From an uncultured Paracoccaceae bacterium (GTDB lineage Bacteria; Pseudomonadota; Alphaproteobacteria; Rhodobacterales; Rhodobacteraceae): 45,339 nt of DNA. The position numbers were made by a program, and so were the translations under genes. The DNA lies in the NCBI GenBank assembly GCA_947503765.1, contig CANNFA010000012.1, positions 1 through 45,339 of the forward strand, read 5' to 3'. Under the pieces are notes generated by a model. It ran no database searches and was not told the DNA's origin. It saw only the letters and a list, made by a program, of their open reading frames with translations. This document shows positions 6,340 through 36,411 of this stretch, piece after piece. How positions within the stretch are numbered: the first letter of the stretch is position 1; every line of letters begins with the position of its first letter.

Positions 6340-6340
6340 T

Positions 6341-8240: not shown

Positions 8241-8241
8241 C

Positions 8242-17434: not shown

Positions 17435-17500
17435 GCGTCACCGGAGAAAAGCGTGAGGTAAATTCATGCGGGGGCAGCCGGTGGGGCCGCCCCGCGCCAC

Positions 17501-19968: not shown

Positions 19969-19969
19969 C

Positions 19970-21172
19970 ATGGAGCTTCCGCTTGCCGGATTGCGCGTTC
20001 TGGCGGTCGAACAATATGGCGCCGGCCCGTTCGGCACCCAGCATCTGGCCGATCTGGGGGCCGAGGTCATCAAGATCGAGAACCGTCGCACCGGCGGCGA
20101 TTACGCCCGCGCGTTGGGGCCGTATTTCGCCGAAGGGGCCGAGGGTGACGACGGCAGCCTGTTCTTCCAGTCGATCAACCGCAACAAGAAAAGCCTGTCG
20201 CTCGATCTGGGCAATGCGCAGGCGCGGCGGATATTCGAGCGGCTGGTGGCGGGGGCCGACGCGGTGGCCAACAACCTGCGCGGCGACGTGCCGGAAAAGC
20301 TGGGGCTGACCTATGATGCGCTCAGCGAGGCGAACCCGGCCATCGTCTGCGCGCATTGCTCGGCCTACGGGCGGGGCGGGCCGCGCCGCGACTGGCCCGG
20401 CTACGACTACCTGATGCAGGCCGAGGCCGGATATTTCCACATGAGCGGCGAGCCGGACACACCGCCCACCCGGATGGGGCTGTCGGTGGTGGATTTCATG
20501 GCCGGCACCTATATGGCGCTGGGGCTGGTCTCGGCGGTGCTGGCGGCGCGGCAGACCGGGCAGGGGCGCGATGTCGACGTGAACCTCTACGATACCGCGC
20601 TGTACAACCTGAGCTATCTCAGCGCCTGGGCGCTGAACAGCGAATATGAACCCGCGCGGATGGCGCGCTCGGCCCATGCGACGCTGGTCCCGTGTCAGCT
20701 GTACCGCACGCGTGATGGCTGGATCTTCGTGATGGGCAATAAGGAAAAGTTCTGGCCGGCGCTATGCGACACGGTCGGCCGCCCGGACCTGAAGGCCGAT
20801 CCGCGGTTCGCGACCTTCGCGGATCGCGGCCGCCACCGCAAGGAGCTTGAGGAACTGCTGGACGATGCCTTTTCGGCTGCGTCTACCGCCGAATGGCTGC
20901 CGCGCCTGCAAGGCCGGGTGCCGGTGGCGCCGGTCCGCACGCCGCGCGAGGCGCTGACCGACCCGGCTTTGCGCGGCGCTGGCGGGGTCGTGCCGGTGCA
21001 GATGGCCTCGGGCGGCAGTTTCGATCTGCTGCGCGCGCCGATCCGCGCCGGGCCGGGCGCGGAACCGGATCGGGCCTGCCCGCCCTTGGGGCAGGATACG
21101 GATGCAATCCTTGCCGCAGCAGGATATTCAGAGCAGGAGATATCGGAGTTTCGTCACCTCGGACTGGTCTGA
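19970..21172 (+). CDS. class III CoA-transferase (CaiB/BaiF family)
   Basis: This 400-residue protein starts with LAGLRVLAVEQYGAGPFG and carries INRNKKSLSLDLGN (CoA-binding loop), the catalytic aspartate in WPGYDYLMQAEAG, MAGTYMALGLVSAVLAARQTG and VDVNLYDTAL. These are standard class III features. It should move CoA between a donor such as succinyl-CoA or acetyl-CoA and a free dicarboxylate, starting the pathway completed by the hydratase and lyase upstream. A 1-bp gap separates it from the hydratase gene. The GntR gene begins 4 bp after its stop, so all four are likely one transcript. Confidence 0.88.
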   Translation: MELPLAGLRVLAVEQYGAGPFGTQHLADLGAEVIKIENRRTGGDYARALGPYFAEGAEGDDGSLFFQSINRNKKSLSLDLGNAQARRIFERLVAGADAVANNLRGDVPEKLGLTYDALSEANPAIVCAHCSAYGRGGPRRDWPGYDYLMQAEAGYFHMSGEPDTPPTRMGLSVVDFMAGTYMALGLVSAVLAARQTGQGRDVDVNLYDTALYNLSYLSAWALNSEYEPARMARSAHATLVPCQLYRTRDGWIFVMGNKEKFWPALCDTVGRPDLKADPRFATFADRGRHRKELEELLDDAFSAASTAEWLPRLQGRVPVAPVRTPREALTDPALRGAGGVVPVQMASGGSFDLLRAPIRAGPGAEPDRACPPLGQDTDAILAAAGYSEQEISEFRHLGLV

Positions 21173-21176
21173 CCGC

Positions 21177-21911
21177 ATGCAAGGCGCAAAACCCAAATAC
21201 AGCCTGATCGCCGATCAGTTGATGCGCCAGATCAACGACGGCACGCTGCCCGTCGGCGCGCCGATGCCGACCGAAACGGAATTGATGCGCGCCTACGGGG
21301 TCAGCCGCCACACGGTGCGCGCCGCGCTGGGGCAGCTTCGCTCGCGCGGCCTCGTCTCGTCGCGGCAAGGCCAGGGCAGCCGGGTTGTCGCCGACGCGGA
21401 TCAGGCCGCGTTCACCGAGAGGATCCAGTCGGTGGACGAGCTGATCACCTTCGGCCAGGAAACCCGCCGCGCCCTGCTGTCACGGCGCATCGTCGAGGCG
21501 GATGGCACGCTGGCGCGGATGTTCGGCTGCGACCAGGGCCGCCGCCTGACCGAGGCGCGGATGATCCGCACCACGCTGGACGGTACGCCCAAGAAGATCG
21601 CGATCGTCACGCTGTGGATCGATGCCTTGCTGGATCCGGTCGTCGAATCGTTCGAGGACGTGCAGAAATCGGCGGCCGAGATCATCCGCGACCGTTTTGG
21701 CCTTGTCACGGGATCGGTGACGCAGACGATCCAGGCCGACAGCCTCGATCCGGATTGCGCCGCCTTGCTGGACACCGCGCCCGGCGCGCCCGCGCTGATC
21801 GTCACCCGAAGCTACTGCCAGGCCGAAAGCGATGTTCCTTTCCTGATCGCACGCTCGGTCTGCAAGGCGGACTCCTTTCAAGTCGTCTCCCGGTTTACGG
21901 CACCGCGATGA
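21177..21911 (+). CDS. GntR family regulator, HutC/UTRA subfamily
   Basis: This 244-residue protein has an N-terminal winged helix (KYSLIADQLMRQINDGTLPV, PTETELMRAYGVSRHTVRAA, LGQLRSRGLVSSRQGQGSRV) and a C-terminal UTRA ligand-binding domain (about 80-240). The UTRA motifs include RMIRTTLDGTPKKIAIVTLW and ALIVTRSYCQAESDVPFLIA. It is last in the lyase-hydratase-transferase operon. The perfect inverted repeat at 18559-18588 is its likely operator, with a substrate or CoA intermediate as inducer. A GC-rich hairpin follows its stop. Confidence 0.9.
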   Translation: MQGAKPKYSLIADQLMRQINDGTLPVGAPMPTETELMRAYGVSRHTVRAALGQLRSRGLVSSRQGQGSRVVADADQAAFTERIQSVDELITFGQETRRALLSRRIVEADGTLARMFGCDQGRRLTEARMIRTTLDGTPKKIAIVTLWIDALLDPVVESFEDVQKSAAEIIRDRFGLVTGSVTQTIQADSLDPDCAALLDTAPGAPALIVTRSYCQAESDVPFLIARSVCKADSFQVVSRFTAPR

Positions 21912-22438: not shown

Positions 22439-23215
22439 CTAGGTGCTCGGCGACCCGGCCATTTCACTGATTTCGCGCGCCGTGGCCATAAGGGTTAGCG
22501 AGTGCTTTTCCGCGAAATCGTCATCGAAACGCGCCTCGGGGACCGAGATGCCGAGCGATCCGATCAAGGCAGAGCCAGGACCCCGGATCGGAGCCGCCAT
22601 TCCGACCGCACCGACAATGCGCTGGCCCTTTGTCAGTGCGTATCCCCTGGCTCGGATACGGGCCAATTCGGCCTCCATTTGCTCTGCATCGGCGATTGAT
22701 GCCTCGGTCGCCGCCTCCAGGCCGGTATGCGCGTAGATCTCGCGCCGCTCGGCTTCGGGCAAATGGGCCAGGATTGCCAGTCCCGAGGCGCCGACATGCA
22801 GTGACTTCCACTCCTGAAGCACCACCACATAGCGCAGGGGCTGCGTGGACTCCGCCGCCGCGACGCCGATGATCTCATGGCGGACGGAATCATACAGGTT
22901 GAGAAATACCGCCTCGCCGCATGTGTCGCGCAAGCGTTCCATCGCGGGCATTGCGATGCGGCGCAGGGGGAAGCGGTCCTTGGCCTGCTGAACGAGGCGG
23001 AACAACTCCAGTCCCAGGCCATAGCGGCTGTCTTCGGGCATCCGGCGCAGGAACCCTTCCTCGACCAGGGCCGTTATGGCGCGATGCGCCGCGCTTGGCG
23101 TCATGTCGAGTGCGGCTGCCACTTCGCGCACCCCAAAGGACTCGCGATCGCATGCAAGCAGCCAACGCATGATGCTCAGCGCCTTGGAAAGTGGATTGCG
23201 GGTTATCGCGGTCAT
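22439..23215 (-). CDS. IclR family transcriptional regulator
   Basis: This 258-residue protein has an N-terminal winged helix (KALSIMRWLLACDRESFGVR, EVAAALDMTPSAAHRAITAL) and a C-terminal IclR effector domain (about 80-250). That domain includes LRDTCGEAVFLNLYDSVRH, LHVGASGLAILAHLPEAER and the typical VGAVGMAAPIRGPGSALIGS. The ATG at 23215 is used. An in-frame ATG at 23245 would add ten residues, and neither has a strong Shine-Dalgarno. It diverges from the catabolic genes starting at 23567. The conserved promoter blocks at 23505, 28906 and 30821, with a palindrome around the -10 region, are likely its targets. Confidence 0.9.
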   Translation of the reverse strand: MTAITRNPLSKALSIMRWLLACDRESFGVREVAAALDMTPSAAHRAITALVEEGFLRRMPEDSRYGLGLELFRLVQQAKDRFPLRRIAMPAMERLRDTCGEAVFLNLYDSVRHEIIGVAAAESTQPLRYVVVLQEWKSLHVGASGLAILAHLPEAERREIYAHTGLEAATEASIADAEQMEAELARIRARGYALTKGQRIVGAVGMAAPIRGPGSALIGSLGISVPEARFDDDFAEKHSLTLMATAREISEMAGSPST

Positions 23216-23504
23216 TTGTTTTGCCTTGCGTGACACTGAATTCATTGTTCGGAACGTTGCATGGGAAAAGCCGGGTTGACAAGGCGGCACGTTGACGGGG
23301 CGACCCGCCAACCGGGGCAATCGCCGCATCGGTCGGATCGCAATTGGATAGCCATGGTATCGGGAGAAGTGAAATCCCGAAAGCGGGCCCGTTCCCGCCG
23401 GGCAACCCGAACGAGGTGGAAAAGGAAGGACCGGTGAGTCATTTCAACGCCACACGGTGACCGGATCCCGGCGCAGGACGCCACCAGCAACGGCCAGAAC
23501 CTCG

Positions 23505-23549
23505 TTGACAGGCATGATTGCATAGGTTACGTATAACACAACATATGTT
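23505..23549 (+). promoter_or_regulatory. Promoter/operator block, copy 1
   Basis: A -35 TTGACA (23505-23510) stands 17 bp from a -10-like TACGTA (23528-23533). The palindrome AACATATGTT (23540-23549) follows. A ribosome site AAAGGAAC precedes the ATG at 23567. The block is near-identical to the one at 30821, and shares ATATGTTCTG with the one at 28906. It probably binds the divergent IclR regulator. Confidence 0.65.
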
Positions 23550-23566
23550 CTGCTTAAAGGAACGAC

Positions 23567-23902
23567 ATGGTGCCGAGCATCGAAACCGACCTTCCGTGTT
23601 CTTTCGCGATGAAAGGCAAGGCCGTCTGGGTCGCCGGCGGCATGTCCGGTATCGGAAAGGTCGGCGCCGTGCGCCGCGGTGTCGGTCCGGGTCTGCGTGG
23701 GCGTCGCCGGCAAGTGGCGATCGACCTGATGCGGCGAGAGTTTCATGGAAGGGGCAGCCGGGTCTGCGTCCACCGTTTCGCGAACCGGCGAAATGTTTGG
23801 CGGAATCTGCCCCAACCGGATCACCGCGTGGTTCATCCACGAGTGGAGAAATGCCGAGATAACCGGGTCCGGCAGTTTTCTTACGTGTTCGAGCCGTTCT
23901 GA
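23567..23902 (+). pseudogene. Decayed SDR dehydrogenase copy (5' part)
   Basis: The first 31 codons parallel the intact SDR at 30883: MVPSIETDLPCSFAMKGKAV then WVAGGMSGIGK, against MQPSSETGL... and WVTGSASGIGK. After the glycine motif the frame breaks. RREFHGRGSRVCV reappears further on, matching QRKFQGWGRRVCV of the intact gene, and the rest (catalytic Ser-Tyr-Lys) is absent. It carries the same promoter as the intact gene. It is therefore the remnant of a duplication of promoter plus SDR, and no enzyme is expected from it. Confidence 0.75.
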
Positions 23903-23937: not shown

Positions 23938-24894
23938 ATGACTAATGTTTCGCGTGCCGAGGATCTTGTCGGCTCCAAGCTCGATCTTGGATTGGGGCTC
24001 GATCCTGTCAGTCCGACACTGGTTCGTTATTGGTGCGAGGCGTTCGAAGATTCGAACCCGCGGTTCTGGTCGGAGGAAAACCCGATCGCACCGCCTGGCT
24101 TGATGACGAGCGTTTGTCGTCTTCCGTATTGGCCTGTCGACCCGAGCATCGACCAGCGCGGCATTATCGGAATGGTCGGCGACGCGCTCGCCTTGCCCGA
24201 GAGCATCGTCAAGAACGTCGATTTCGAGTTCAACCGCGATTTGAAGATCGGGGACCGGATCAGGTGCGTGGAGCGGGTCATCTCGATCTCCGAGCAGAAA
24301 AAGACGCGTATCGGACCCGGACATTTCGTTTGCATCGAACGGAGCTACGAGGACGAAGAGGGCGAGGTCGTCGGCAGCGCCGTTCTCGACTTCTTCAAAT
24401 ATGCACGAGCACAGAAACCCAAACCTGTCGAGGCACCGCCGGTCGGCAATGTCGTACGGCCCTCTCAGTCCGAACGCGGCGGGTTGAGTGAAGCGACGCG
24501 CCCCGACGCAAGTTCGCTGAAGGCGGGCGACGAGCTTGACCCGCTTTCATGGAAACTGAACTCCACGAGAATGATCCTGATGGGGTATATCTGCCGGGAT
24601 TTCAATCCGGTGCACCATGATGCGGAATATGCGCGGTCCAATGGACTTAAGCACATGTTCATGCAGTGGGCCTGCTATTCGGGGGTCATCGGCCGCTATG
24701 TTGCGCGCGAGCTTGGCACGGACGGACAGATGAGCCGCCTGAAGTTCGAAATGCGGCGGCCGGTCTATGCTGGCGAACAGCTGGAGGTTCGCGGAACCAT
24801 CATCGAACGCTCGTCCGACGAAACCCGCCTCGACATAAGCCTGTCGGACTCGAACGGTGTAGCGACGAGCGGTCAGGTCTGGACAAGAGCATGA
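23938..24894 (+). CDS. FAS1-like/MaoC double hot-dog enoyl-CoA hydratase
   Basis: This 318-residue protein has two hot-dog halves. An N-terminal FAS1-DH-like part (about 10-150) contains DFEFNRDLKIGDRIRCVERV. A C-terminal MaoC part (about 195-315) contains the hydratase motif CRDFNPVHHDAEYA (Asp...His) and FEMRRPVYAGEQLEVRG. It should hydrate a 2-enoyl-CoA. The start follows AAGGAAA, and its stop overlaps the thiolase-fold gene (ATGA), followed by a DUF35 gene. This order resembles the hydratase/aldolase sets of steroid side-chain breakdown. The actual acyl-CoA is unknown. Confidence 0.78.
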   Translation: MTNVSRAEDLVGSKLDLGLGLDPVSPTLVRYWCEAFEDSNPRFWSEENPIAPPGLMTSVCRLPYWPVDPSIDQRGIIGMVGDALALPESIVKNVDFEFNRDLKIGDRIRCVERVISISEQKKTRIGPGHFVCIERSYEDEEGEVVGSAVLDFFKYARAQKPKPVEAPPVGNVVRPSQSERGGLSEATRPDASSLKAGDELDPLSWKLNSTRMILMGYICRDFNPVHHDAEYARSNGLKHMFMQWACYSGVIGRYVARELGTDGQMSRLKFEMRRPVYAGEQLEVRGTIIERSSDETRLDISLSDSNGVATSGQVWTRA

Positions 24895-26036
24895 CTAAAG
24901 ACAGTTCGGTGGTCATCGCGGGTGTCGCGGATCTGGTTGGCAAGGCCGCCGCGAACCAGTCACCCGATGCCCTCATGGTGCGCGTCGCGACGCGGGCGCT
25001 CGAAGATGCGGGAATCGATCTCAAGGACGTTGACGGAGTTTTCTGCGCGTCGCCGCACGATAACATGCCGACCCTTCGCGCAGCATCCGTCCTCGGGATT
25101 GCACCGCGTTATTTCGACGGCACCTCGATCGGCGGGGCGTCCTACGAAAGCTTCGTGACGCATGCGGCGCTGGCCTTGCAGGCGGGTGCCTGCGACGTTG
25201 CGCTGATCCTCTACAGCAGCGCACAGAGGTCTGCGCGGGGCAAGTTCAGCACACGTTCCGCGCCGCCCGTGGCGGAAGCGGTTTCGGGAATGCTGTACCC
25301 GGTCAGTTCCTTCGCCATGATGGCGTCTCGCTATATGGAGACCTACGGGTCAGGGCCGGACGATCTTGCGGCCGTCGCGGTTTCCGCGCGCGAGTGGGCG
25401 CGCCATCACCCGGCTGCAACCAGCAGGGACCCGCTCAGCATCGAGGATGTGTTGTCTTCCAGGATGGTGAGCGAGCCGCTGCGCAAGCTTGATTGCTGCC
25501 TGGTCACCGATGGTGCGGGGGCCGTGGTGATGACCCGTGCGGACCGCGCGCAGGATTTGCCCCGCAGGCCCGTCAAGGTGCTTGGAGGCGCGGAAGGCCA
25601 TACGCACCGGTTCATCTCGGACATGCCCGACCTTCTGACGACGGCTGCATCGACCACCGTTCCCGACGCGCTGCGCGCCGCGAAAATCGGACTTGAGGAG
25701 ATTGACGTCTTTCAGGTCTACGACGCGTTCACCATCGACGTTCTGCTCATCCTCGAGGATATGGGCCTCTGTTCCAGGGGGGAAGCCGGAGCCTTCGTGA
25801 AATCGGGCGCGACGTCGCCCGGCGGTGCTGCGCCGTTGAACACGAACGGAGGTGGCTTGTCCTACGCACATCCGGGAATGAACGGGATTTTCCTGTTGAT
25901 CGAAGCGGTGCGCCAATTGCGCCAGGACAGCCCCGGACTTGTTGTCGAGGGGGCCGAGACGGCCCTGGTCCATGGACTTGGCGGGCCGCTTTCATCCGGT
26001 TCGACCGTGGTACTCGGTGTGGAGGACGTATCTTGA
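24891..26036 (+). CDS. thiolase-fold protein (SCPx/Ltp2-like), probable CoA-thioester aldolase
   Basis: This 381-residue protein has the thiolase fold with SCPx-type signatures: VDGVFCASPHDNM, GAGAVVMTRADRA, IDVFQVYDAFTIDVLL (Tyr277) and NGGGLSYAHPG (His327). The usual nucleophilic Cys loop reads SIGGASYESFV (about 79-89), with Ala/Ser where Cys belongs, so ordinary thiolysis is unlikely. Non-decarboxylating relatives that keep YDAFT but lack the Cys, such as Ltp2, act as retro-aldolases with a DUF35 partner, and that partner gene follows directly. I infer cleavage of a beta-hydroxyacyl-CoA to an aldehyde or ketone plus a short acyl-CoA. Confidence 0.8.
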   Translation: MTKDSSVVIAGVADLVGKAAANQSPDALMVRVATRALEDAGIDLKDVDGVFCASPHDNMPTLRAASVLGIAPRYFDGTSIGGASYESFVTHAALALQAGACDVALILYSSAQRSARGKFSTRSAPPVAEAVSGMLYPVSSFAMMASRYMETYGSGPDDLAAVAVSAREWARHHPAATSRDPLSIEDVLSSRMVSEPLRKLDCCLVTDGAGAVVMTRADRAQDLPRRPVKVLGGAEGHTHRFISDMPDLLTTAASTTVPDALRAAKIGLEEIDVFQVYDAFTIDVLLILEDMGLCSRGEAGAFVKSGATSPGGAAPLNTNGGGLSYAHPGMNGIFLLIEAVRQLRQDSPGLVVEGAETALVHGLGGPLSSGSTVVLGVEDVS

Positions 26037-26437
26037 ATATCGGCCAGTTGATTTCCGACCTGTTTCCAGATGAACGGCTGCCTTACGAATGGGCGGCGCA
26101 GGGACAGCTGATGGTAAAGGTCTGTTCCGATTGCGGATCCTATCTGCCGCCGCATCGTCTGATCTGCACGGGCTGCCATTCGGCGGAGCTCACGCCCACG
26201 AACGCCTCGGGCAGGGGCAAGATCCATGCGCATACGGCCGTCCGGGCGGACCGTCACAGCCCGGAGTTGACCCGCATCGCGATGATCGAACTCGAAGAGG
26301 GGCCTCGGGTGATAGGACGGCTCATCGGAACGGAAGCCAAGCCTTCGATCGGCGACGCCGTGGTCGCGACCTTCGAAGCGGTGGCGGACGACCTCGCCGT
26401 GCCGGTCTTCACAATCAGATCGAACGAGACATCGTAG
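26033..26437 (+). CDS. DUF35 Zn-ribbon/OB-fold partner of the thiolase-like protein
   Basis: This 134-residue protein has an N-terminal helix, a rubredoxin-like zinc ribbon (C31-x2-C34 and C45-x2-C48: CSDCG, CTGCH) and an OB-fold (about 55-130, GKIHAHTAVRADRH, GDAVVATFEAV). Such proteins bind CoA and complex with thiolase-fold enzymes, enabling their activity. The start is a TTG at 26033 overlapping the thiolase stop (TTGA). No ATG gives the conserved N-terminus, and the tight coupling supports a fixed complex. Confidence 0.88.
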   Translation: MNIGQLISDLFPDERLPYEWAAQGQLMVKVCSDCGSYLPPHRLICTGCHSAELTPTNASGRGKIHAHTAVRADRHSPELTRIAMIELEEGPRVIGRLIGTEAKPSIGDAVVATFEAVADDLAVPVFTIRSNETS

Positions 26438-26451
26438 GGAGCGCGAGCGCA

Positions 26452-28572
26452 ATGGAAGAATCTGGACTGGAACGGCTGCTTTCGCCGCGGAGCATCGCAG
26501 TCGTCGGTGCGTCGCCCACGCTTGATCGCGCGCCGATGCGGATTTTCGACAATCTGATTGCGGGCGGATACGACGGCTCGGTGTTCCCGGTGAACCCGAA
26601 ATACGACGAAGTCTTCGGATTCCGGTGCTTCGCGTCGCTGTCCGCCCTGCCGGAAGTTCCGGACGTCGTTGCGGTGTCGGTGGCTTGGCATCGGCTTCTC
26701 GACGTCCTCGAGGAAGCGGCGGGTCTGGGTGTGCCCGCGGCGCTCATCTATGGAGCCACCTACAATGAGCCCGGCGTCGATGTCGATCAGATGGAGAAGG
26801 CGATCAGCGATCTGGCAAAGCGGAGCGGAATGCGGATCCTCGGCCCGAGCACGCAGGGATCCTTTCGAGTCGCGTCGAAAGCCTGCCTCAGCTGGTCGGC
26901 CGCCTATTCCGGAGCGAACCTCGCAGAGAGCGGGCCGATCGGTTGGGTCAGCCAGAGCGGTGCGATCGGAACCGCCCTTCTGGGCCTGATCCGCGATCTG
27001 GGCGTCGGTCTCAGCCACTGGGTTTCCACCGGCAACGAGACCGATCTCGAGTTCTCGGAGATTGCCTCTCATGTTCTCGATGATCCCGCGACGACCGCGC
27101 TGTGCGGATACATCGAGTCCATTCGCGACCTGACCGCCTTTCGAGCCATGACGGCCAAGGCCCAAGCCTTGGGAAAGCCGGTCGTCTTGATCAAGGGGGG
27201 TCTTTCGGCGGCCGGCAGTGCGGCCGCGGCTTCGCACACCGGAGCATTGGCAAGTTCATCGGCCGTGTTCGAAGGATTGTTCCGGCAGTGCGGGGTCATC
27301 GTCGCGAGCGATCTGGACGAATTGGCCATGATCGCGTGGATGCTGCAGCACAAGCCGAATATCCAAAGTGGCAATCATGCGGCGGTCCTGTGCAATTCCG
27401 GGGGATTGGGGATTGTCCTTGCGGATGTCGCGGATCGACAGGGATTCGAGGTCGATCAGCTTTCGGATGGACACCGCGAAGCGCTGCGTCCCTTGCTTCC
27501 CTCCTATGTGGTGGCGGGCAACCCGGTGGATATGCCCGTCGTGATGATGCGACGCCCCGGCGATCTGCCCGGGATCCTCGAGGTCTTGTCCAACGACACC
27601 GAATTCGACGTCTTCATCCTGGTCGTCCTGGGGGTCAGCCCGGCCGCGGCATACGACCTTCCCAAGGTATTCGAGGCAATCCAGGCGGCGGATCGAGTGG
27701 CCGGAGGCCGACTTGTCCCGATATTGTTCGCCGGATCGAGCGATATCATCGGACAGGCACATTCTGCGGGGGTTGAGGCGATATCGGACGCGCCGCGTGC
27801 GATTGCGGCCCTCTCCAAGATCATGGGCGCGCGCAAGTCCGAACCCGAACAGGTTCAGACCGAAGAGGCCGGAAGTTCCGATCTGTACAGGCTGAGCGAG
27901 GCTGACGCAAAGAAACTGCTTGGAACCCACGGGATTCCTGTTCCCGCCGGTGAAGTCGTCGCCAGCGCCGCCGAGGCGGGTGATGCGGCAGATCGCCTCG
28001 GCTATCCGCTTGTCGTCAAGGTGTCTTCGCCGGATATCGTGCACAAGACCGATGTGGATGGTGTGCGACTGAAACTGTCGTCCCGGGACGCGGTGACGCG
28101 CGCTGTCGATGAAATTCTGGAAAGTGTCGGCCAGCACATGCCGGGCGCACAACTGGACGGTTGCCTGTTGGAACCGATGGCGGGCGATGGCATCGACGTC
28201 ATCATCGGTATGCATCGCGATCCCGCACTCGGCCCGGTGATGATGTTCGGCCTGGGCGGCGTGAATGTCGAACTGTTCGGCGACGCCAGTTTCCGAGTGC
28301 CCCCGCTTGATGCCGACACGGCGCGGGAAATGATCGGCGAGACCCGTGCCGTCAAGCTGCTCTCCGGTTGGCGCGGGGCGGCGCAGGCGGACATTGATGC
28401 GCTCTTGGACATCATGGTTCGCACCAGCGAGTTTGTCGAAAGCAAAGCAAGCGCTCTTGCGGAATTCGAGCTCAATCCGGTTCGGGTGCACGACAAGGGC
28501 AGTGGCGTCACGGTTCTGGACGCGGTCTGCGCCTTCGACAAGGCACCGGACGGCGCTGTCCGAGATACATAG
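26452..28572 (+). CDS. acetate-CoA ligase (ADP-forming)-type acyl-CoA synthetase, fused subunits
   Basis: This 706-residue fusion has an alpha part: CoA-binding Rossmann domain (about 10-135, RSIAVVGASPT) and succinyl-CoA-ligase-like domains with GWVSQSGAIGTALL and phospho-His262 in SHTGA. The beta part is an ATP-grasp domain from about 480 (YPLVVKVSSPDIVHKTDVDG, EFELNPVRV). The enzyme forms acyl-CoA from acid, ATP and CoA via a phospho-His, giving ADP and Pi. It lies 14 bp after the DUF35 gene in the hydratase/thiolase-fold operon, so it probably activates the pathway's acid substrate or recovers a product. A remnant of a second such gene is at 34830. Confidence 0.88.
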   Translation: MEESGLERLLSPRSIAVVGASPTLDRAPMRIFDNLIAGGYDGSVFPVNPKYDEVFGFRCFASLSALPEVPDVVAVSVAWHRLLDVLEEAAGLGVPAALIYGATYNEPGVDVDQMEKAISDLAKRSGMRILGPSTQGSFRVASKACLSWSAAYSGANLAESGPIGWVSQSGAIGTALLGLIRDLGVGLSHWVSTGNETDLEFSEIASHVLDDPATTALCGYIESIRDLTAFRAMTAKAQALGKPVVLIKGGLSAAGSAAAASHTGALASSSAVFEGLFRQCGVIVASDLDELAMIAWMLQHKPNIQSGNHAAVLCNSGGLGIVLADVADRQGFEVDQLSDGHREALRPLLPSYVVAGNPVDMPVVMMRRPGDLPGILEVLSNDTEFDVFILVVLGVSPAAAYDLPKVFEAIQAADRVAGGRLVPILFAGSSDIIGQAHSAGVEAISDAPRAIAALSKIMGARKSEPEQVQTEEAGSSDLYRLSEADAKKLLGTHGIPVPAGEVVASAAEAGDAADRLGYPLVVKVSSPDIVHKTDVDGVRLKLSSRDAVTRAVDEILESVGQHMPGAQLDGCLLEPMAGDGIDVIIGMHRDPALGPVMMFGLGGVNVELFGDASFRVPPLDADTAREMIGETRAVKLLSGWRGAAQADIDALLDIMVRTSEFVESKASALAEFELNPVRVHDKGSGVTVLDAVCAFDKAPDGAVRDT

Positions 28573-29424: not shown

Positions 29425-30513
29425 ATGAACTTCAATTCCCTGATGACAGGCACGCTTGAATACCTGCGCCGTCCCATCATCGCCAATGTGACCGAAGGCA
29501 TGAAAGTGCTGGTCGTGACCGACACCGCGCATGATCCGCGCGTCTGGCAGGCGATCATGAGCATTCTGTCCGAGGTCAAGGCAGATGCAACGCTGGCGCT
29601 GTTCGATCCGCGCCCGGCCGACTATTACGATCCGCCCGCCGCGGTCTGCGAGGCGATGAAGAAGGTCGACCTCAATATCCTGATTGCCTCGACCGGAATG
29701 CTGCATGCCCACGCCAATTCTGATGCCATGAATGCCGGTGTGCCGGTGCTCTGCATGGACGGTGGCATGACGCTTGAAATGTTCCAGTCCGGCGCCGTGA
29801 CCGAGGATCAGAAGGAAATGGCGATGCGGCAGTACCATGTCGCCAAGAACATTTTCGGCAAGGACGCCAAGACCTGCCGCGTGACCTCGAGATATGGCAC
29901 CGATTTCACCTACTCGGTGGAAAACCGCATCTTCATCCCGAACCCGCCGGGCGACGATTTCGTCCCCTACAAGATCCAGAACGTTTCCAAGGTCCAGAAC
30001 CGCAAGTCCAACATGCTGCGGTTCCTGTTCCCCAACGGCGAATTCAACGTGCCGCCGGTGGAATTCACCGCCGAGGGCAAGCTGGTTTTCGATCTGTGCA
30101 TGCACCAGACCGGCCGGCTTTACGATCCCATCGAACTGACCGTCGAAAAGGGCCGCATCGTGAAGATCGAGGGCGGGGCCGAGGCGCATTTCCTGCGCAA
30201 CTATCTGGCCGAATACGGCGATGAGAACGCCTATATCTGCCCGGCCGAAGCCTCTGTCGGCATCAACTCCAAGGCGCTTGTCCGTGGCATTCAACGCGAG
30301 GACAAGAACGTGCTCGGCACGATGCATTTCGGGCTGGGGACCAACGTGGATGTCGGCGGATCGATCTTGTCCAATATCCACCTCGACGGCGTGATTCTTG
30401 AGCCGACCCTGTATGTGGATGGCGACAAGCGTATCGAGCACGGTCGTTTCCTGCGCCCGATTGATCGCCCGATGTCCCGGGACACAACCGGCCAAGTCGC
30501 AGTGCCCGGATAG
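29425..30513 (+). CDS. M29 aminopeptidase / NicX-like metalloenzyme
   Basis: This 362-residue protein follows a strong AGGAGG site. Its C-terminal half resembles both M29 metallopeptidases and NicX (2,5-dihydroxypyridine 5,6-dioxygenase): IELTVEKGRIVKIEGGAEAH, YICPAEASVGINSKAL, GTMHFGLGTNVDVGG and NIHLDGVILEPTLYV. The HLD pair (His...Asp) that binds iron in NicX is kept. The other NicX His position reads Glu (PAEASVG), as in peptidases. It may be a divergent ring-opening dioxygenase, hydrolase or peptidase. Its place among CoA catabolism genes favours a substrate-processing enzyme. Confidence 0.65.
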   Translation: MNFNSLMTGTLEYLRRPIIANVTEGMKVLVVTDTAHDPRVWQAIMSILSEVKADATLALFDPRPADYYDPPAAVCEAMKKVDLNILIASTGMLHAHANSDAMNAGVPVLCMDGGMTLEMFQSGAVTEDQKEMAMRQYHVAKNIFGKDAKTCRVTSRYGTDFTYSVENRIFIPNPPGDDFVPYKIQNVSKVQNRKSNMLRFLFPNGEFNVPPVEFTAEGKLVFDLCMHQTGRLYDPIELTVEKGRIVKIEGGAEAHFLRNYLAEYGDENAYICPAEASVGINSKALVRGIQREDKNVLGTMHFGLGTNVDVGGSILSNIHLDGVILEPTLYVDGDKRIEHGRFLRPIDRPMSRDTTGQVAVPG

Positions 30514-30820: not shown

Positions 30821-30866
30821 TTGACAGGTGCAATCCCGTTCGTTACATTAAACACAACGCCTGTTC
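30821..30866 (+). promoter_or_regulatory. Promoter/operator block, copy 3
   Basis: TTGACA (30821-30826), a 17-bp spacer and TACATT (30844-30849) precede AACACAACGCCTGTTCT (30851-30867). The block matches that at 23505 at most positions through the start codon, including TAAAGGAAC upstream of ATG 30883. It should drive the SDR and the Tct transporter genes. Confidence 0.65.
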
Positions 30867-30882
30867 TACCTAAAGGAACAAC

Positions 30883-31686
30883 ATGCAGCCGAGCTCCGAA
30901 ACTGGCCTTTCGAATCCTTTCGAAATGAACGGCAAGACCGTCTGGGTCACCGGCAGCGCGTCCGGTATCGGAAAGGCCATCGCCGAGCTCTTCGCGCATT
31001 GCGGCGCCGACCTGGTCTTGCATGGGCTTGGCCAGCGAGAGGTGACCGAACCGATGCAACGAAAGTTCCAGGGATGGGGGCGCCGGGTCTGCGTCGTGGA
31101 TGGTGACCTGACCGATGCCGATTCCTGTGCCTCGATGGTCGCGCAGATTCGCGGTGAACTTGGCGGTCTGTCGTGTCTAGTGAACTGTGCCGGCGGCTCG
31201 CCGCTGAAAAGTGCCATTTCGCAGATGTCCGAGGACGACTGGGATCACGTTATCGAGAAGAACCTGAAATCGGTCTTCCTGACCGCCAGAGCGGCGCTTC
31301 CGTTGCTGAAAGAAGCAGCGGCGGCCGGGCAGGGACCTTCCGTGGTGAACGTCAGCTCGACCGTGACGCGAACCGGCGGTGTGCCTGGCGGTGCCTGCTA
31401 TGCCACCGCCAAGGGGGGCGTGGAAGTCCTGACACGCGCCCTCGCCAAGGAGCTGGCTGCGGACGGGATACGCGTGAACGCCGTGGCGCCGGGGCTGATC
31501 GACACCCCGTTCCACGGCCGCGACGTGAAGGAAGCCTATGCCGGCCGGATCGACTCGATCCCGCTGGGCCGTGTCGGCGAGCCGCAAGATTTGGCGGGTC
31601 CGGTGCTGTTCCTGGCTTCGGACGCGGCATCCTACGTGACCGGAGAGATTATCGAGGTTAGCGGGGGAACCCGGCTATCGCCGTGA
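30883..31686 (+). CDS. short-chain dehydrogenase/reductase
   Basis: This 267-residue classical SDR has the cofactor motif TGSASGIG (23-30), a structural NCAGG (101-105), catalytic Ser158/159 (NVSST), Tyr173 and Lys177 (YATAK) and the terminal EVSGGTRLSP. His47 and the absence of a basic residue there give no firm cofactor choice; Asp75 supports adenine contact. The expected reaction is NAD(P)-linked oxidation of a hydroxy group, for example on a hydroxyacyl-CoA or alcohol intermediate. It has its own promoter block and is followed by tctCBA. An incomplete duplicate lies at 23567. Confidence 0.92.
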   Translation: MQPSSETGLSNPFEMNGKTVWVTGSASGIGKAIAELFAHCGADLVLHGLGQREVTEPMQRKFQGWGRRVCVVDGDLTDADSCASMVAQIRGELGGLSCLVNCAGGSPLKSAISQMSEDDWDHVIEKNLKSVFLTARAALPLLKEAAAAGQGPSVVNVSSTVTRTGGVPGGACYATAKGGVEVLTRALAKELAADGIRVNAVAPGLIDTPFHGRDVKEAYAGRIDSIPLGRVGEPQDLAGPVLFLASDAASYVTGEIIEVSGGTRLSP

Positions 31687-31742: not shown

Positions 31743-32714
31743 ATGATTACAAGACGAACTCTGGGAAAGACAGCATTCGCCGGCATTGCCCTGGCCATGA
31801 CGGGCACGTCGGCGAGGGCGCAGGATTTTCCCACGAAGCCGATCAGGCTGATCGTGCCCTTCGCGCCCGGCGGTCTGACCGACACCTTCGCCCGGGCCAT
31901 GGCGCGCGCTGCCGAGAATCATCTGCCCGACAATCAGTCGGTGGTGGTCATCAACAAGCCGGGGGCGGGTGGTGTCATCGGCGTGACCGAAGCCTATTCC
32001 GCCGAGCCGGACGGCTACACCATCGCCTTCGTGATCTCGTCGCCGATCGTGACTCAGCCGCATTACGGCAAATCCGTCTACAAGGCATCGGACTTTCAGC
32101 CGATTCGCCACGTCTACGACATTCCCTGTGCCATCACCGTGCATACCGACGCGGAGTGGCAGAATGTCGATGAATGGATCGCCTGGATGAAAGCGAATCC
32201 GGGGAAGTTCACGTATGGCTCGTCTTCCGGTCCCGGCGGCGTGACCCATCTTCTGGCTGCGAAGTTCTTCGAAGCGGCCGGAGTGGACGCCCGATATGTG
32301 CCCTTCCAGGGTTCGGCGCCGCTCAATGCCGCGATCATGGGTGGCCAGGTGTCGGGCGGCTCGATGATGCCCACCCAGCATTCCGGCGGCGAAGCCCGTC
32401 CGATGGTCTTCGTGACGCCGACCAAGCCGGACGACCCGATCTATGACGATGTCCCCTTTGCATCCGACCTTGGTATCGACGCCATGGCGTCGGTGTTCTC
32501 GGGCATCATCGGCCACAAGGACATCCCGGCCGATCGCATCGCCATCCTGAATGATGCGTTCACCGCCGCAATGAGCGATCCGGCCGTCCAGGAGCTCTTC
32601 GCCACCAGAAAGCTCGTTCCCAGCACGACCGACAACGCGGAATTCGCCAAGATCATCATGCGCGAGAACGAGTTCAACGGAGAGATGCTCAAGCGTCTCG
32701 GCCTGATTGATTAA
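31743..32714 (+). CDS. tctC: TTT transporter solute-binding protein (TctC)
   Basis: This 323-residue protein has a signal peptide with a twin Arg (MITRRTLGKTAFAGIALAMT, cut near ARA-Q), so Tat or Sec export is possible. The Bug/TctC signatures are PTKPIRLIVPFAPGGLTDTF, VVVINKPGAGGVIGV, FTYGSSSGPGGVTHLLAAKF and DIPADRIAILNDAF. It binds a carboxylated solute in the periplasm for TctAB. The start at 31743 follows GGAGAAGA. A strong hairpin separates it from tctB and could raise its transcript level over the membrane genes. Confidence 0.95.
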   Translation: MITRRTLGKTAFAGIALAMTGTSARAQDFPTKPIRLIVPFAPGGLTDTFARAMARAAENHLPDNQSVVVINKPGAGGVIGVTEAYSAEPDGYTIAFVISSPIVTQPHYGKSVYKASDFQPIRHVYDIPCAITVHTDAEWQNVDEWIAWMKANPGKFTYGSSSGPGGVTHLLAAKFFEAAGVDARYVPFQGSAPLNAAIMGGQVSGGSMMPTQHSGGEARPMVFVTPTKPDDPIYDDVPFASDLGIDAMASVFSGIIGHKDIPADRIAILNDAFTAAMSDPAVQELFATRKLVPSTTDNAEFAKIIMRENEFNGEMLKRLGLID

Positions 32715-32717
32715 GTC

Positions 32718-32747
32718 GATATGCCCGGTCCCAGTGCCGGGCATATC
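32718..32747 (+). terminator. Intercistronic hairpin tctC-tctB
   Basis: GATATGCCCGG (32718-32728) pairs perfectly with CCGGGCATATC (32737-32747) across an 8-nt loop, 4 bp after the tctC stop. There is no T-tract. It is suited to protecting the tctC message and partly attenuating tctBA. Confidence 0.62.
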
Positions 32748-32846
32748 ACCTTCGGGCGGCAGCCTTCTCAAGTGTAATCGGGCGCTTGCCATCTTGCCGG
32801 GCCGGCAGCCAGAATCGAGTATCGCTCCCTTGTCCAAATGGAGAGA

Positions 32847-33299
32847 ATGATGAGCTATCGCAGCGTGAACCTCGTCGTGTTTGCCGGGATAGTGGCGCTT
32901 TGCCTGGCCATCATCTACGCCATGCAGTCGATGCGCGCACCGATGGAAGGCGACATCGGAGCCTGGTTCGTTCCCTCGGCCGTGGCGTGGCTGATCATCG
33001 GTCTGTGCGTTGTCGGGGTGATCAGGACGCTGGCCGTCGGCCGCACCGAAACCTTCGTCATTCCCGCGTTCGGACGAGTCCTGATCTCGATCCTGATCAT
33101 CGCGTTATTCCTGGTGTCCTGGGTCTATCTGGGGGCCTTCTACCTCCAGATGTTCGTCTTCCTGATGGTGCTGTCGCTGATCTACCGCAGACCGGTTGGA
33201 ATCGACGCGCGCCAGATCATCATCACCACCGCCGTCTCCGCCGCGATCACGCTGTTCAGCTACATCGTGTTTGCCCACCTCATCTACGTCGACCTCTGA
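32847..33299 (+). CDS. tctB: TTT transporter small membrane subunit (TctB)
   Basis: This 150-residue protein has four hydrophobic helices (about 6-24, 42-62, 75-103 and 120-145). This is the normal TctB topology, with the typical RTLAVGRTETFVIPAFGRV loop. The ATG at 32847 has GGAGAGA upstream. ATGs at 32838 and 32850 are alternatives. It forms the membrane complex with TctA. The gap to tctA is 12 bp. Sequence conservation in this family is low, so the call rests mainly on size, topology and its place between tctC and tctA. Confidence 0.88.
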   Translation: MMSYRSVNLVVFAGIVALCLAIIYAMQSMRAPMEGDIGAWFVPSAVAWLIIGLCVVGVIRTLAVGRTETFVIPAFGRVLISILIIALFLVSWVYLGAFYLQMFVFLMVLSLIYRRPVGIDARQIIITTAVSAAITLFSYIVFAHLIYVDL

Positions 33300-33311
33300 G
33301 AGGGCCATGAC

Positions 33312-34811
33312 ATGGACATCCTTGCCAGCTTCGAACTCGCGTCCATCGGGTCGGCACTCTTCGCGATCGGACTGGGGCTTTTCGTGGGCATGTTGTGCGG
33401 CGCGCTTCCGGGGCTGGGGCTGATCATCGCCGTCACCCTGCTGCTGCCGCTTTCCTACACAATGGGTCCGGTAGAGTCGATCTTGCTGCTGCTCGCCTGT
33501 TACCAGGGGGCGGAATACGGAGGGTCGATATCCGCCATCGTTCTTGGCATTCCGGGCACCGCGATGGCGGCGCCTCTCGTCACGGACGGCTTCGCCATGG
33601 CCAAGACGGAATCGCCGGGCAAAGCCCTGGGGTTCTCTCTTTACGGATCGACCTTCGGCGGCATCTTCGGCGGGATCGTGTTGATCTTTTTCGCCGAACC
33701 GGTGGCGCGTTTCGCCTTGAAGCTCGCCGATCCCGAGTTCTTTCTGCTCGGTGTCGTGGGGCTGTTGGCCGTAGCCGCCTTCGGAGCCGTGGACTTCATC
33801 AAGGCGATGATCTCGGTTGCGCTTGGCCTGCTCTGCGGGATGGTCGGGATCGATCTGTTCTCGGGGGTCCCGCGCATGACCATGGGGGTGCTGGCGCTTT
33901 ACGACGGCATGAACATCGCGGCGGTTGCGGTCGGCCTTTTTGCCTTCTCCGAAATCTTCGTGATGATCAGTGCGCCGATGAACAGTTCCCATACCTTTAC
34001 CAAAGGTGACATGCGCATCCGCCTGACGCTCAAGGAAATGGTCTATGCGTTCAAGGCGATGGTGACCGGATCCGTGGTCGGCTCGTTCATCGGGGCGTTG
34101 CCGGGGGTCGGCTCGACCGTGTCGGGGTACCTGGCCTACTCGGGGGCCAAGGCCGCATCCAGCAAGCCCGAAAAGTTCGGCAAGGGAAGCGGCGAGGGCA
34201 TTGCCGCACCTGACGCGGCCAACAATGCGACGGTGGGCGCGGCGCTGCTGCCGTTTCTCGCCCTGGGCATTCCCGGCTCGGCCTCGATCGCAATCATCGC
34301 CGGGGCATTCATCATCCACGGGATCCAGCCCGGTCCGCAACTGATGCGGAACAATCCGGACATGATCCAGGCGATCTTCATCGGGTTCATGGCAACGACC
34401 GTGGTGATGTTCTTCATGGGCAAGGCTCTGACCACCGTGTTCGCGCGGGCCTTGGTTACGCCCAACGCCTTCCTCGTGCCGGCGATCCTCATCTCCTCCA
34501 TCATTGGGGTCTATTCCTCGCGTGGACAGATGTTCGACCTCTGGCTGGCGCTCGGACTGGGGATCATCACATATGTGATGCGGCGGCTCGACTATTCGCC
34601 GGCGGGCTTTCTGATCGCGATGGTGCTGGCGCCGATCATCGAGACCAGCTTCCGTCGCGCATTGGTCATCTCACAGGGCGATTACTCGATCTTCATCACC
34701 CGCGGCTATTCCCAAGCCATTGCCGCGATCATCCTGGCCACCCTGGCCTATGCCATTTTCCGGTCGGTCAGGCGCCTGCGCCAGCAGCGTGCAGCGACCA
34801 GCGAGAGTTGA
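33312..34811 (+). CDS. tctA: TTT transporter large membrane subunit (TctA)
   Basis: This 499-residue membrane protein has about 11-12 hydrophobic helices. The family hallmarks are GMLCGALPGLGLIIAVTLLL, YQGAEYGGSISAIVLGIPGT, GSFIGALPGVGSTVSGYLAY and PFLALGIPGSASIAIIAGAF (the repeated P-G loops around the substrate path). It transports tricarboxylate-like or other carboxylated solutes delivered by TctC. It belongs to the operon SDR-tctC-tctB-tctA, suggesting uptake of the substrate used by the nearby CoA pathway. Confidence 0.95.
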   Translation: MDILASFELASIGSALFAIGLGLFVGMLCGALPGLGLIIAVTLLLPLSYTMGPVESILLLLACYQGAEYGGSISAIVLGIPGTAMAAPLVTDGFAMAKTESPGKALGFSLYGSTFGGIFGGIVLIFFAEPVARFALKLADPEFFLLGVVGLLAVAAFGAVDFIKAMISVALGLLCGMVGIDLFSGVPRMTMGVLALYDGMNIAAVAVGLFAFSEIFVMISAPMNSSHTFTKGDMRIRLTLKEMVYAFKAMVTGSVVGSFIGALPGVGSTVSGYLAYSGAKAASSKPEKFGKGSGEGIAAPDAANNATVGAALLPFLALGIPGSASIAIIAGAFIIHGIQPGPQLMRNNPDMIQAIFIGFMATTVVMFFMGKALTTVFARALVTPNAFLVPAILISSIIGVYSSRGQMFDLWLALGLGIITYVMRRLDYSPAGFLIAMVLAPIIETSFRRALVISQGDYSIFITRGYSQAIAAIILATLAYAIFRSVRRLRQQRAATSES

Positions 34812-34829: not shown

Positions 34830-34970
34830 CGGATACGATTGAACGGGATCTGTTTCGAGGGTCTGGCCACCCCGGGGATCGGCAAACTCGATGTGAATCC
34901 CTTCCTTGTGGGCCCCGGCGGCATTGCCGCCGTCGATGCCCCGACCGCTGTGCGAAATGAGAGAGACTGA
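34830..34970 (+). pseudogene. ADP-forming acyl-CoA synthetase, C-terminal remnant
   Basis: In frame up to TGA 34968-34970 the sequence reads GIGKLDVNPFLVGPGGIAAV then DA..., the last strand pair of an ATP-grasp acyl-CoA synthetase (the LEINPLLV...GVVAVDA pattern). About 47 codons remain. It ends 1 bp before the aldehyde dehydrogenase ATG, as an operon neighbour would. It differs from the end of the intact gene at 26452, so it is the trace of a second, deleted synthetase. Confidence 0.65.
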
Positions 34971-34971
34971 C

Positions 34972-36411
34972 ATGCATCACACACAGGATGGCCGCTGGGT
35001 CGAGCGGCGCTTTCACCATTTGATCGCGGGCGAGCTGTGCGACGGGCCGTTCGTTTTCCCGGTCATTGACCCCGCGACCGAACAGACCGTTGCCCATGCG
35101 CCCGGCGCAGACCGCGCCATGCTGGATCGCGCTGTCGCCTCCGCGCAGGCCGCCCTGCCGGCCTGGCAGGCACTGAGCTTTTCCGAACGCGCCGCTCCCC
35201 TCCTACAACTCAGGGACCGGATCACCGAGAATGCCGAGGACCTGGCAGCGCTGCTGACCGCGGAACAGGGAAAGCCCTTGGCCCTCTCGCGCGAAGAGAT
35301 CGCGGCGGGGGCGGGTACAATCACGGCTCTGACCGGCCGGACGCTTGAACCTGAACTGCTGGGAGAGGCCGGCGGGGTCCGCACCGAATTGCACTACCGC
35401 CCGTTGGGGGTGATCGGAGCCATCACCCCATGGAATTCGCCCCTTCTGCTGGCAATACCCAAGCTGGTGTCGGCACTTTATTGCGGCAATGCAATCGTGC
35501 TCAAACCCTCGCCGACCACGCCGCTGACCTCGCTGCTGCTGGCCGAACTGGCCGCGCCGCTGTTTCCCGCCGGCATCGTCAACATCATCGCCGGAGAGAA
35601 CGAATTCGGCCATTGGATGAGTACCCATCCGGGCATCGCCAAGATCAATTTCACCGGCTCGGTTCCCACCGGGCGACGGATCATGGAATCGGCTGCCCCG
35701 ACCCTGAAGCGGCTGACGCTCGAACTGGGTGGCAACGATGCGGCCATCGTGCTTGAGGACGCCGACATCACGACTGTCGCACCCCGCATCCTGCAAGGGG
35801 CATTCAGAAACAGTGGCCAGATTTGCCAGGCGATCAAGCGGCTCTATGTCCACGAGTCGGTCTACGAACGTATGGTCACGGCGATGACCGAGGCCGCCGA
35901 ACGTCTGGTGATCGGACCCGGCAACGACCCCGCAACGACGCTCGGACCGATCCAGAACCGGACCCAGTTCGACCGGCTGTGTGCGCTGCTGGACGAGACC
36001 CGTGACCTCCCCGCTGTGCGGTTCACCACCGGCGGGCACGCGCTAAACCGGCCCGGCTATTTCATTGCCCCGACCATCGTGGCCGATATCGCCGAGGGCA
36101 CCCGCCTGGTCGATGAGGAGCAGTTCGGGCCGATCCTGCCGATCATCCGCTACAGCTCGGTCGAGGATGCCATCGCGCGCGCCAATGCTTCGCCTTTCGG
36201 GCTGGGCGGGTCGATCTGGACAAGCGACCACCGTCGCGGCTGGGAACTGGCCGGGCGGCTCGAAACGGGCGTGGCCTGGGTCAACCATCACCTTGGGCTG
36301 GGCGGCGATTTCCCCTTTGGCGGGGTGAAGCAGTCCGGTATCGGCCGGGCAAAGTCGATCCTTGGCCTGAAAGCGCATATGGAGGCGCAGGTACTGCAGG
36401 GCCCGGCCTGA
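34972..36411 (+). CDS. aldehyde dehydrogenase family protein
   Basis: This 479-residue protein carries all catalytic residues: Asn155 (ITPWNSP), Lys178 (LKPSPTTP), Glu251 (LELGGND) and Cys285 (NSGQICQ). The terminal motifs are EEQFGPILPI and FPFGGVKQSGIG. It oxidises an aldehyde to an acid with NAD(P). The actual substrate is unknown; the family includes succinate-semialdehyde, betaine-aldehyde and aromatic aldehyde enzymes. As the last gene of the cluster it may deal with an aldehyde released by the thiolase-fold aldolase candidate. The ATG directly follows the stop of the synthetase remnant. Confidence 0.92.
   Translation: MHHTQDGRWVERRFHHLIAGELCDGPFVFPVIDPATEQTVAHAPGADRAMLDRAVASAQAALPAWQALSFSERAAPLLQLRDRITENAEDLAALLTAEQGKPLALSREEIAAGAGTITALTGRTLEPELLGEAGGVRTELHYRPLGVIGAITPWNSPLLLAIPKLVSALYCGNAIVLKPSPTTPLTSLLLAELAAPLFPAGIVNIIAGENEFGHWMSTHPGIAKINFTGSVPTGRRIMESAAPTLKRLTLELGGNDAAIVLEDADITTVAPRILQGAFRNSGQICQAIKRLYVHESVYERMVTAMTEAAERLVIGPGNDPATTLGPIQNRTQFDRLCALLDETRDLPAVRFTTGGHALNRPGYFIAPTIVADIAEGTRLVDEEQFGPILPIIRYSSVEDAIARANASPFGLGGSIWTSDHRRGWELAGRLETGVAWVNHHLGLGGDFPFGGVKQSGIGRAKSILGLKAHMEAQVLQGPA

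Follow-up and report, generated by a model that had tools for sequence, protein, structure and literature searches.

The stretch analysed here, hereafter the window, comprises 45,339 nucleotides of an uncultured Paracoccaceae bacterium (assembly GCA_947503765.1, contig CANNFA010000012.1). Based upon homology and gene order, we consider it likely that nucleotides 23938–28572 specify a hydratase/retro-aldolase module for an acid activated with coenzyme A (CoA). It contains a double hot-dog hydratase, a thiolase-like protein, a DUF35 protein and an acyl-CoA ligase (Table 1), and the most likely activity of the predicted thiolase-like enzyme would be retro-aldol cleavage of a beta-hydroxyacyl-CoA. 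This reading is supported by homology to each component of the ChsH1-ChsH2-Ltp2 steroid module and by the position of the thiolase-like protein in a tree beside CtSal and TcLtp2, two proven aldolases. The substrate is probably not a steroid. An initial annotation of this DNA had suggested a possible new aldolytic acyl-CoA cleavage system; the homology and the tree uphold the aldolytic part, whereas "new" was too strong since the subfamily already has a name, thiolase-like proteins paired with DUF35 occur widely, and the non-steroid retro-aldolase IpfD/IpfE is in print.

The thiolase-like protein had been described as lacking the nucleophilic Cys while keeping YDAF and a His, and the alignments confirmed this. 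Its Cys slot is occupied by Gly82 (IGGAS), the motif reads Y277-D-A279-F280, and His327 (AHPGM) and His361 (HGLGG) are present; no overlooked catalytic Cys was found in the aligned protein. Canonical thiolases combine the nucleophilic Cys with HDxF, where the window protein has Gly82 and Tyr277, that is, the Gly and the YDxF Tyr which are the signature of Ltp2- and Sal-type enzymes. According to the CtSal study (PMC12329534), Gly in the Cys slot cannot support thiolysis and the motif Tyr is essential. The residue pair specific to Ltp2 (Tyr344 of TcLtp2 and the His of YDHF) and that specific to Sal (Gln352 and the Cys of YDCY) are both replaced by His327 and Ala279, His327 being aligned opposite TcLtp2 Tyr344 and CtSal Gln352 in the printed alignments. 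This Tyr/Ala/His active-site pattern had escaped the initial annotation. An alignment of 57 rows (the protein and 56 relatives) shows the slot Gly and the YD of the motif in all 57, and the His in 56.

The protein scores above the curated cut-off of NF004811 (PRK06158; 465.2 vs 421 bits), a subfamily which already carries the name acetyl-CoA acetyltransferase. Elsewhere in the genome NF004811 gave three further matches, all of them weak (E 7.5e-8 to 6.4e-4). Among the Pfam families Thiolase_C_1 passes, with Thiolase_N just short (23.8 of 26.4). A phmmer search of solved structures gave 4u4e (317 bits), CtSal (9MYR, 165), TcLtp2 (6OK1, 142), 7yvy (128) and 7pxp (126). The first of these is named a thiolase, yet it is Cys-less, with YDSF and the His. 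The subunit of benzoylsuccinyl-CoA thiolase (BbsB, 7pxp) and 7yvy are also named thiolases, and both score under the two proven aldolases. The identity of 9MYR with CtSal comes from the data statement of PMC12329534; by our count, its chain numbering is that of the paper plus 24.

To this we added an alignment of 169 rows, derived from 80 newly fetched loci, 29 from the class sample, 48 from the order sample, 11 others and the window protein, after 4 short sequences and identical or overlapping copies had been removed from 175 matching open reading frames (ORFs). The set is enriched in relatives of the window protein; in the class sample, a Thiolase_C_1 protein (E 1e-15) is carried by 40 of 96 genomes. 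Slot and motif occur as Cys with His (46 rows), Cys with Gln (5), non-Cys with Tyr (115) and non-Cys with another residue (3); Cys with Tyr was found in none. The 115 rows, which include the window protein, have Gly in the slot together with the motif Tyr, and 13 of them, the window protein not among these, have a Cys one position past the slot. The absence of the nucleophilic Cys is thus no peculiarity of a single protein. At the His327 column these 115 rows have His (98), Tyr (11), Gln (5) or Met (1), and at the Ala279 column Ala (59), Ser (30), Cys (10) or one of five other residues (16). The layout seen most often in this enriched sample is the one to which the window protein belongs, His combined with Ala or Ser (58 and 28 rows, respectively). 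The idea that the His327 layout is one of only three was dropped, since more kinds are present among the 115 Tyr rows.

A tree was then calculated from 56 rows (58% identity cut) with the trait columns masked. The 35 Cys-less/Tyr rows are without exception found on the same side, where 34 of them are united with a Shimodaira-Hasegawa-like approximate likelihood-ratio test (SH-aLRT) value of 97. This side contains a CtSal clade (4 rows, SH-aLRT 88), a TcLtp2 clade (13 rows, 82) and a clade of the window protein with 4u4e (16 rows, 96); the last has the His in 16 of 16 rows, and motif Ala or Ser in 14 and Cys in 2. The window protein thus groups with the proven aldolases CtSal and TcLtp2 against the Cys rows, in a separate clade.

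Aldolases of the Ltp2 and Sal types have a DUF35 partner, and the gene following that of the thiolase-like protein encodes one. Its product passes both Pfam cut-offs (zf-ChsH2, 29.0 vs 23.2 bits; OB_ChsH2_C, 31.6 vs 27.1) and has four zinc-type Cys residues (C31, C34, C45 and C48). The position of the thiolase-like gene between those for the hydratase and DUF35 held up as originally described: the ORFs are as placed, and overlap by ATGA (hydratase/thiolase-like) and TTGA (thiolase-like/DUF35), with which coupled translation of the three genes would fit. A same-strand DUF35 frame, taken from stop to stop, lies within 300 bases of all 74 relatives scoring above 450 bits with our own profile; this line is ours and is distinct from the NF004811 cut-off, the count excludes 80 loci with short flanks and the window's own copies, and a few of the loci also trained the DUF35 profile. 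In the other classes, crudely sorted by pattern, a DUF35 neighbour was seen for 5/7 proteins with Tyr, 1/5 with Cys and 2/7 of the remainder. PMC12502768 reports that an insertion in ChsH2-DUF35 halts the steroid aldolase step, and that DUF35 is indispensable for the aldolase and still works when produced apart from MaoC.

The hydratase contains two hot-dog halves, with FAS1_DH_region passing its Pfam cut-off in the N-terminal half and MaoC just under in the C-terminal half (25.6 of 27 bits). The C-terminal half keeps D-x-N-P-x-H (D221-F-N-P-V-H226), whereas in the N-terminal half the catalytic His is replaced by Phe43. The arrangement is that of ChsH1-ChsH2, in which one half has the Asp/His motif and the other is inert, and the halves are homologous to these proteins; it differs from the two-chain form, with DUF35 on the ChsH2 chain, in that the halves are fused and DUF35 is separate. 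For comparison we used an igr-type operon from another genome of the phylum, with genes named by homology and order, in which ChsH2 and ChsH1 genes lie beside an Ltp2-like gene (YDHF) and an acyl-CoA-dehydrogenase-like frame. In single comparisons, hydratase residues 10–198 matched the MaoC domain and linker of ChsH2 (28%, E 3e-18) and residues 197–309 matched ChsH1 (27%, E 2e-17), while the DUF35 protein matched the DUF35 end of ChsH2 (30%, E 1e-14) and the thiolase-like protein matched Ltp2 (34%, E 9e-55). As judged by homology, the window module is the four domains of the steroid module rearranged, with MaoC(ChsH2)-ChsH1 on one chain, the aldolase, and a free DUF35, a shuffling which had also gone unnoticed. 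The fusion itself is not new, since the one-chain double-MaoC steroid hydratases ChsH3, CasD and CasQ, which have no DUF35, are described in PMC11321319.

With every component homologous to a steroid module, the set might be a bile acid or sterol side-chain aldolase module whose ring-degrading genes lie elsewhere in the genome or have been lost. One-chain relatives of the hydratase are also carried by plasmids of Prescottella equi and Novosphingobium sp. ES2-1, strains which we take to be estrogen degraders. We regard this as unlikely. The genome contains one Thiolase_C_1 protein (E 1e-15) and one Ltp2-like protein, the latter being the window protein, and the extradiol dioxygenase TIGR03213 was not found in it, in a search of steroid ring genes that was not exhaustive; ten proteins encoded near the igr-type operon were also scanned, and yielded no steroid ring family to search with. 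These searches cover only a part of what the earlier statement, that there are no steroid genes, would require. In addition, the neighbouring genes encode a tricarboxylate-type importer, an SDR protein and an aldehyde dehydrogenase, and the active-site residues are unlike those of both steroid types.

The ligase possesses CoA-binding, Succ_CoA_lig and ATP-grasp domains and a SHTGA motif, the His of which we take to be the catalytic His of ADP-forming acyl-CoA synthetases; these features place it in the ADP-forming type. No NCBIfam equivalog cut-off was passed by the ligase.

From the observed gene order, families, residues, conservation and tree position we infer the chemical steps, a complex and the substrate class. 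The ligase, or another activating enzyme, would make an alpha,beta-unsaturated acyl-CoA; since the operon is without an acyl-CoA dehydrogenase gene, the acid may arrive unsaturated. The fused ChsH2/ChsH1-like hydratase would add water using Asp221/His226, and the thiolase-fold protein, bound to DUF35, would split the beta-hydroxyacyl-CoA into a short acyl-CoA (acetyl- or propionyl-CoA) and an aldehyde or ketone, cleavage pulling the unfavourable hydration forward. The beta-hydroxyl would lose its proton to Tyr277, with His327 as the proton donor to the enolate. The motif Tyr serves as the base in both CtSal and TcLtp2, and their acids are Cys304 and Tyr344, respectively (PMC12329534). His327 is the candidate acid because it occupies the place of Tyr344/Gln352 and is present in 16 of 16 clade rows, and because equivalents of Cys304 and Tyr344 are absent. 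An aldehyde product could pass to the downstream aldehyde dehydrogenase; this gene and the importer point to a carboxylate that is taken up and an aldehyde that is released.

Two other chemistries were considered. The thiolase-fold protein could be a weak decarboxylase or a Cys-independent Claisen-type enzyme and not a hydroxyacyl-CoA lyase, which we think quite improbable. The Cys-less trypanosome SLP slowly decarboxylates malonyl-CoA, and CtSal is reported not to do so, both according to PMC12329534. Our literature search, with most subscription papers outside its coverage, found no characterised NF004811 member, PRK06158 in no paper, and only unrelated matches to 4U4E; the first of these results leaves room for such an activity. 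The hydratase directly upstream, with its stop/start overlap, fits a beta-hydroxy substrate and argues for the lyase. There is also a small chance that the set runs in reverse, by joining an acyl-CoA to an aldehyde in an aldol reaction, or by the ligase releasing the acid and making ATP. ADP-forming ligases are reversible and often ATP-making, and this, like the want of an adjacent acyl-CoA dehydrogenase, counts for the reverse direction. Against it, the importer, IclR-type regulator and aldehyde dehydrogenase look catabolic, and hydration, being unfavourable, is drawn forward by the aldolases already known (PMC11321319).

Several observations weigh against a hydratase/retro-aldolase module. 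The His conserved at position 327 is also present in 46 of 46 Cys/His rows, so its conservation alone is no proof of an aldolase role; furthermore, His cannot replace Cys304 in CtSal (PMC12329534), although that is a different slot from His327. The coupling of slot and motif was rejected as independent evidence, as it represents about one event, with 2 independent pairs and no significance. The tree was built quickly and has long branches, and it leaves the branching order of the three Cys-less clades unsettled, so that the window protein need not sit between the two proven aldolases. An AlphaFold model built on three sequences (the window protein and two relatives) reached a mean predicted local distance difference test (pLDDT) score of 40.9 and was not used. 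PMC11321319 describes DUF35 as apparently unimportant for aldolase or hydratase activity, contradicting PMC12502768. No acyl-CoA dehydrogenase gene lies beside the operon. The CoA ligase and aldehyde dehydrogenase named in the initial annotation are both present, but the latter lies 8.5 kb beyond the DUF35 gene with other genes between, and its link to the module is putative. Lastly, in the closest gene layout found, on a Mycolicibacterium rufum plasmid, the hydratase has RMFSGIHH where the window protein has RDFNPVHH; the motif Asp is lost, and that hydratase may not work like its window homolog.

The M. rufum plasmid carries genes for a thiolase-like protein (YDSF, His), DUF35 and a one-chain hydratase homolog (27% over 314 aligned positions) in a row, surrounded by aromatic-ring dioxygenases, a CoA-transferase and an aldehyde dehydrogenase. 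Such surroundings point to, without proving, a use on non-steroid and perhaps aromatic compounds. Three further plasmids have a thiolase-like gene with a hydratase relative nearby. That of Mycolicibacterium chubuense NBB4 has OB-fold and AtuA-family genes as well, that of Prescottella equi has an OB-fold gene, its thiolase-like gene being annotated as a transporter, and the third belongs to Novosphingobium sp. ES2-1 (lipid-transfer protein). A 41 kb Sulfitobacter sp. SK025 plasmid stretch (1–41161) contains two thiolase/OB-fold pairs, a further Cys-type thiolase, acetate--CoA-ligase-family genes, acyl-CoA dehydrogenases, TRAP importers and IclR regulators.

Matches to NF004811 (E 1e-80) were found in 37 of the 292 genomes of the order sample, its own included, 32 of them above the cut-off, and 212 plasmid records match the thiolase-like protein (E 1e-40), all at less than 60% identity. 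The hydratase occurs in its own genome only among the class (1/385), genus (1/5) and family (1/394) samples, own genome included; in the phylum sample (2/398) the second genome carries the halves as two separate genes. These four samples overlap and are not additive. No relative of the hydratase was found among viral contigs, the ligase gave no plasmid match at E 1e-100, and 14 kb of window DNA gave one plasmid match only, of 270 bases in the aldehyde dehydrogenase gene; an orthologous operon was found in none of these searches. The viral-contig scan for the thiolase-like protein gave a single relative, 58% identical over residues 176–376. On that contig (442–3023) a recombinase-like frame, named by eye, abuts the thiolase-like gene, which is cut at its 5' end and has an open DUF35 frame behind it; the arrangement looks as though the thiolase-like gene had been the integration site of an element.

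It is highly improbable that the set was horizontally acquired and has lost its function, even though the hydratase is confined to this genome among 5 of the genus and 394 of the family, and degenerate duplicated DNA lies just upstream. The four frames are all open and overlapping or nearly touching, as in an operon, they keep the expected residues, and their GC content (58.7–64.0%) is near that of the whole window (62.9%). The upstream DNA (23479–23770) is a degenerate copy of 30795–31095, which holds the SDR gene promoter together with the first quarter of that gene; identity is 76% over 194 bases and 73% over the next 95, so that the operon adjoins a broken SDR duplicate.

Table 1. Predicted features of the module and its surroundings (window coordinates)
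Feature	Coordinates	Strand	Remarks
IclR-type regulator	22439..23329	-	Divergent from the hydratase operon
Hydratase operon promoter region	23479..23570	+	Resembles the SDR gene promoter region, 30795-30886
Double hot-dog (MaoC-type) enoyl-CoA hydratase, predicted	23938..24894	+	318 amino acids; from families and residues
Cys-less thiolase-like protein, predicted acyl-CoA retro-aldolase	24891..26036	+	381 amino acids; G82 in Cys slot, Y277-D-A279-F, H327, H361
DUF35 protein (zinc ribbon C31/C34/C45/C48 and OB fold), predicted aldolase partner	26033..26437	+	134 amino acids; TTG start
ADP-forming-type acyl-CoA ligase	26452..28572	+	706 amino acids; all three domains, SHTGA motif
M29/dihydroxypyridine-dioxygenase-like protein	29425..30513	+	Under Pfam cut-off
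SDR-family oxidoreductase	30883..31686	+	From family scans
Tripartite tricarboxylate-type importer	31743..34811 (TctC 31743-32714, TctB 32838-33299, TctA 33312-34811)	+	Named by eye from translations
Aldehyde dehydrogenase	34966..36411	+	Exact start unsure; listed ORF starts at 34906 with TTG

The promoter copy (76%) suggests that the hydratase operon and the SDR gene may belong to one regulon, as may the M29-like gene, since the short blocks TTGACAG and AAGGAAC are also present before it; its membership is a possibility. The IclR-type protein would co-regulate the module. The true start of its gene probably lies downstream of the first ATG of the frame. A candidate operator, TATGTTCTG, gave 7 matches with one mismatch allowed, but 4 of 100 shuffles also gave 7, and it was not relied on. 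The aldehyde dehydrogenase was above the cut-off of none of the 25 NCBIfam families listed. For the M29-like protein, the sole solved relative under E 0.001 was 2,5-dihydroxypyridine dioxygenase (35 bits), the H-x-D of the matched part being kept. M29-like genes also occur in a haloarchaeal plasmid stretch with three thiolase/OB-fold pairs and an IclR gene, and in Salipiger abyssi near aldehyde dehydrogenase and IclR genes.

Elsewhere in the window, 18599–21911 encodes an HpcH/citrate-lyase-type protein, for which RipC, an itaconate C-C lyase, was the best NCBIfam match though short of the cut-off, as well as a class III CoA-transferase and, by eye, a MaoC-like protein and a GntR-like regulator. 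It adjoins a TRAP-like importer (15684–18508, by eye) and may represent another C-C cleaving acid pathway. At 2931–9582, close to the end of the contig, primase-like and tyrosine-integrase-like genes (by eye) point to an integrated element beside the catabolic sets.

Tentatively, and with rather less confidence than in the module itself, we suggest that the NF004811 clade is a further catalytic type of DUF35-dependent acyl-CoA aldolase with the thiolase fold, having a Tyr-His pair where Sal has Tyr-Cys and Ltp2 has Tyr-Tyr, and that the genes of the window provide an aldolytic, non-steroid route for an unsaturated acid taken up from outside, proceeding by ADP-forming activation, hydration on a one-chain ChsH2-ChsH1 protein, retro-aldol cleavage and aldehyde oxidation. 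Thiolase-like/DUF35 pairs are common and are named acetyl-CoA acetyltransferases or thiolases though they are without the thiolase nucleophile. If this suggestion is true, many genes now called acetyl-CoA acetyltransferase are misnamed, and if the clade cleaves hydroxyacyl-CoAs, many catabolic clusters of unknown substrate would be read differently. It also raises the question of whether several acid-base pairs evolved in one fold for the same reaction, for which Tyr277 and His327 would be the key residues.

Among known systems, ChsH1-ChsH2-Ltp2 (igr operon; TcLtp2, 6OK1) has homologs of the four domains, a Gly at the position of the Cys, the YDxF Tyr, a DUF35 partner, and one active and one inert hot-dog half. 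The window module differs in having His327 for Tyr344 of TcLtp2 and Ala279 for the motif His, in its fused hydratase halves, separate DUF35 and adjoining ADP-forming ligase, and in that no steroid context was found for it in the partial search of steroid genes. The bile acid hydratase/aldolase Shy-Sal shares the Gly, the motif Tyr and the DUF35 partner, and CtSal is closer by score to the window protein than is TcLtp2; here Cys304 corresponds to Ala279 and Gln352 to His327, and Shy is a single MaoC domain fused to DUF35. The true thiolases associated with DUF35, such as 7yvy, share the fold and the GHP-motif His, and their HDAF is one residue from YDAF, but 7yvy keeps the nucleophilic Cys (ACASGG). 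IpfD/IpfE, the ibuprofen-CoA retro-aldolase, likewise pairs a thiolase-like with an OB-fold protein, acts on a non-steroid acyl-CoA and follows a CoA ligase, whereas its hydroxyl comes from a dioxygenase and not a hydratase (PMC9195938, PMC11347016). The window protein also passes the cut-off of NF004811/PRK06158, and its nearest solved relative is 4u4e, which has the motif and the His: relatives share YD[AS]F, the His and the DUF35 neighbour, the subfamily members compared above the cut-off are 43–54% identical to the window protein, and the ChsH2-ChsH1-like fused hydratase, which stands beside none of the compared loci, sets the window module apart.

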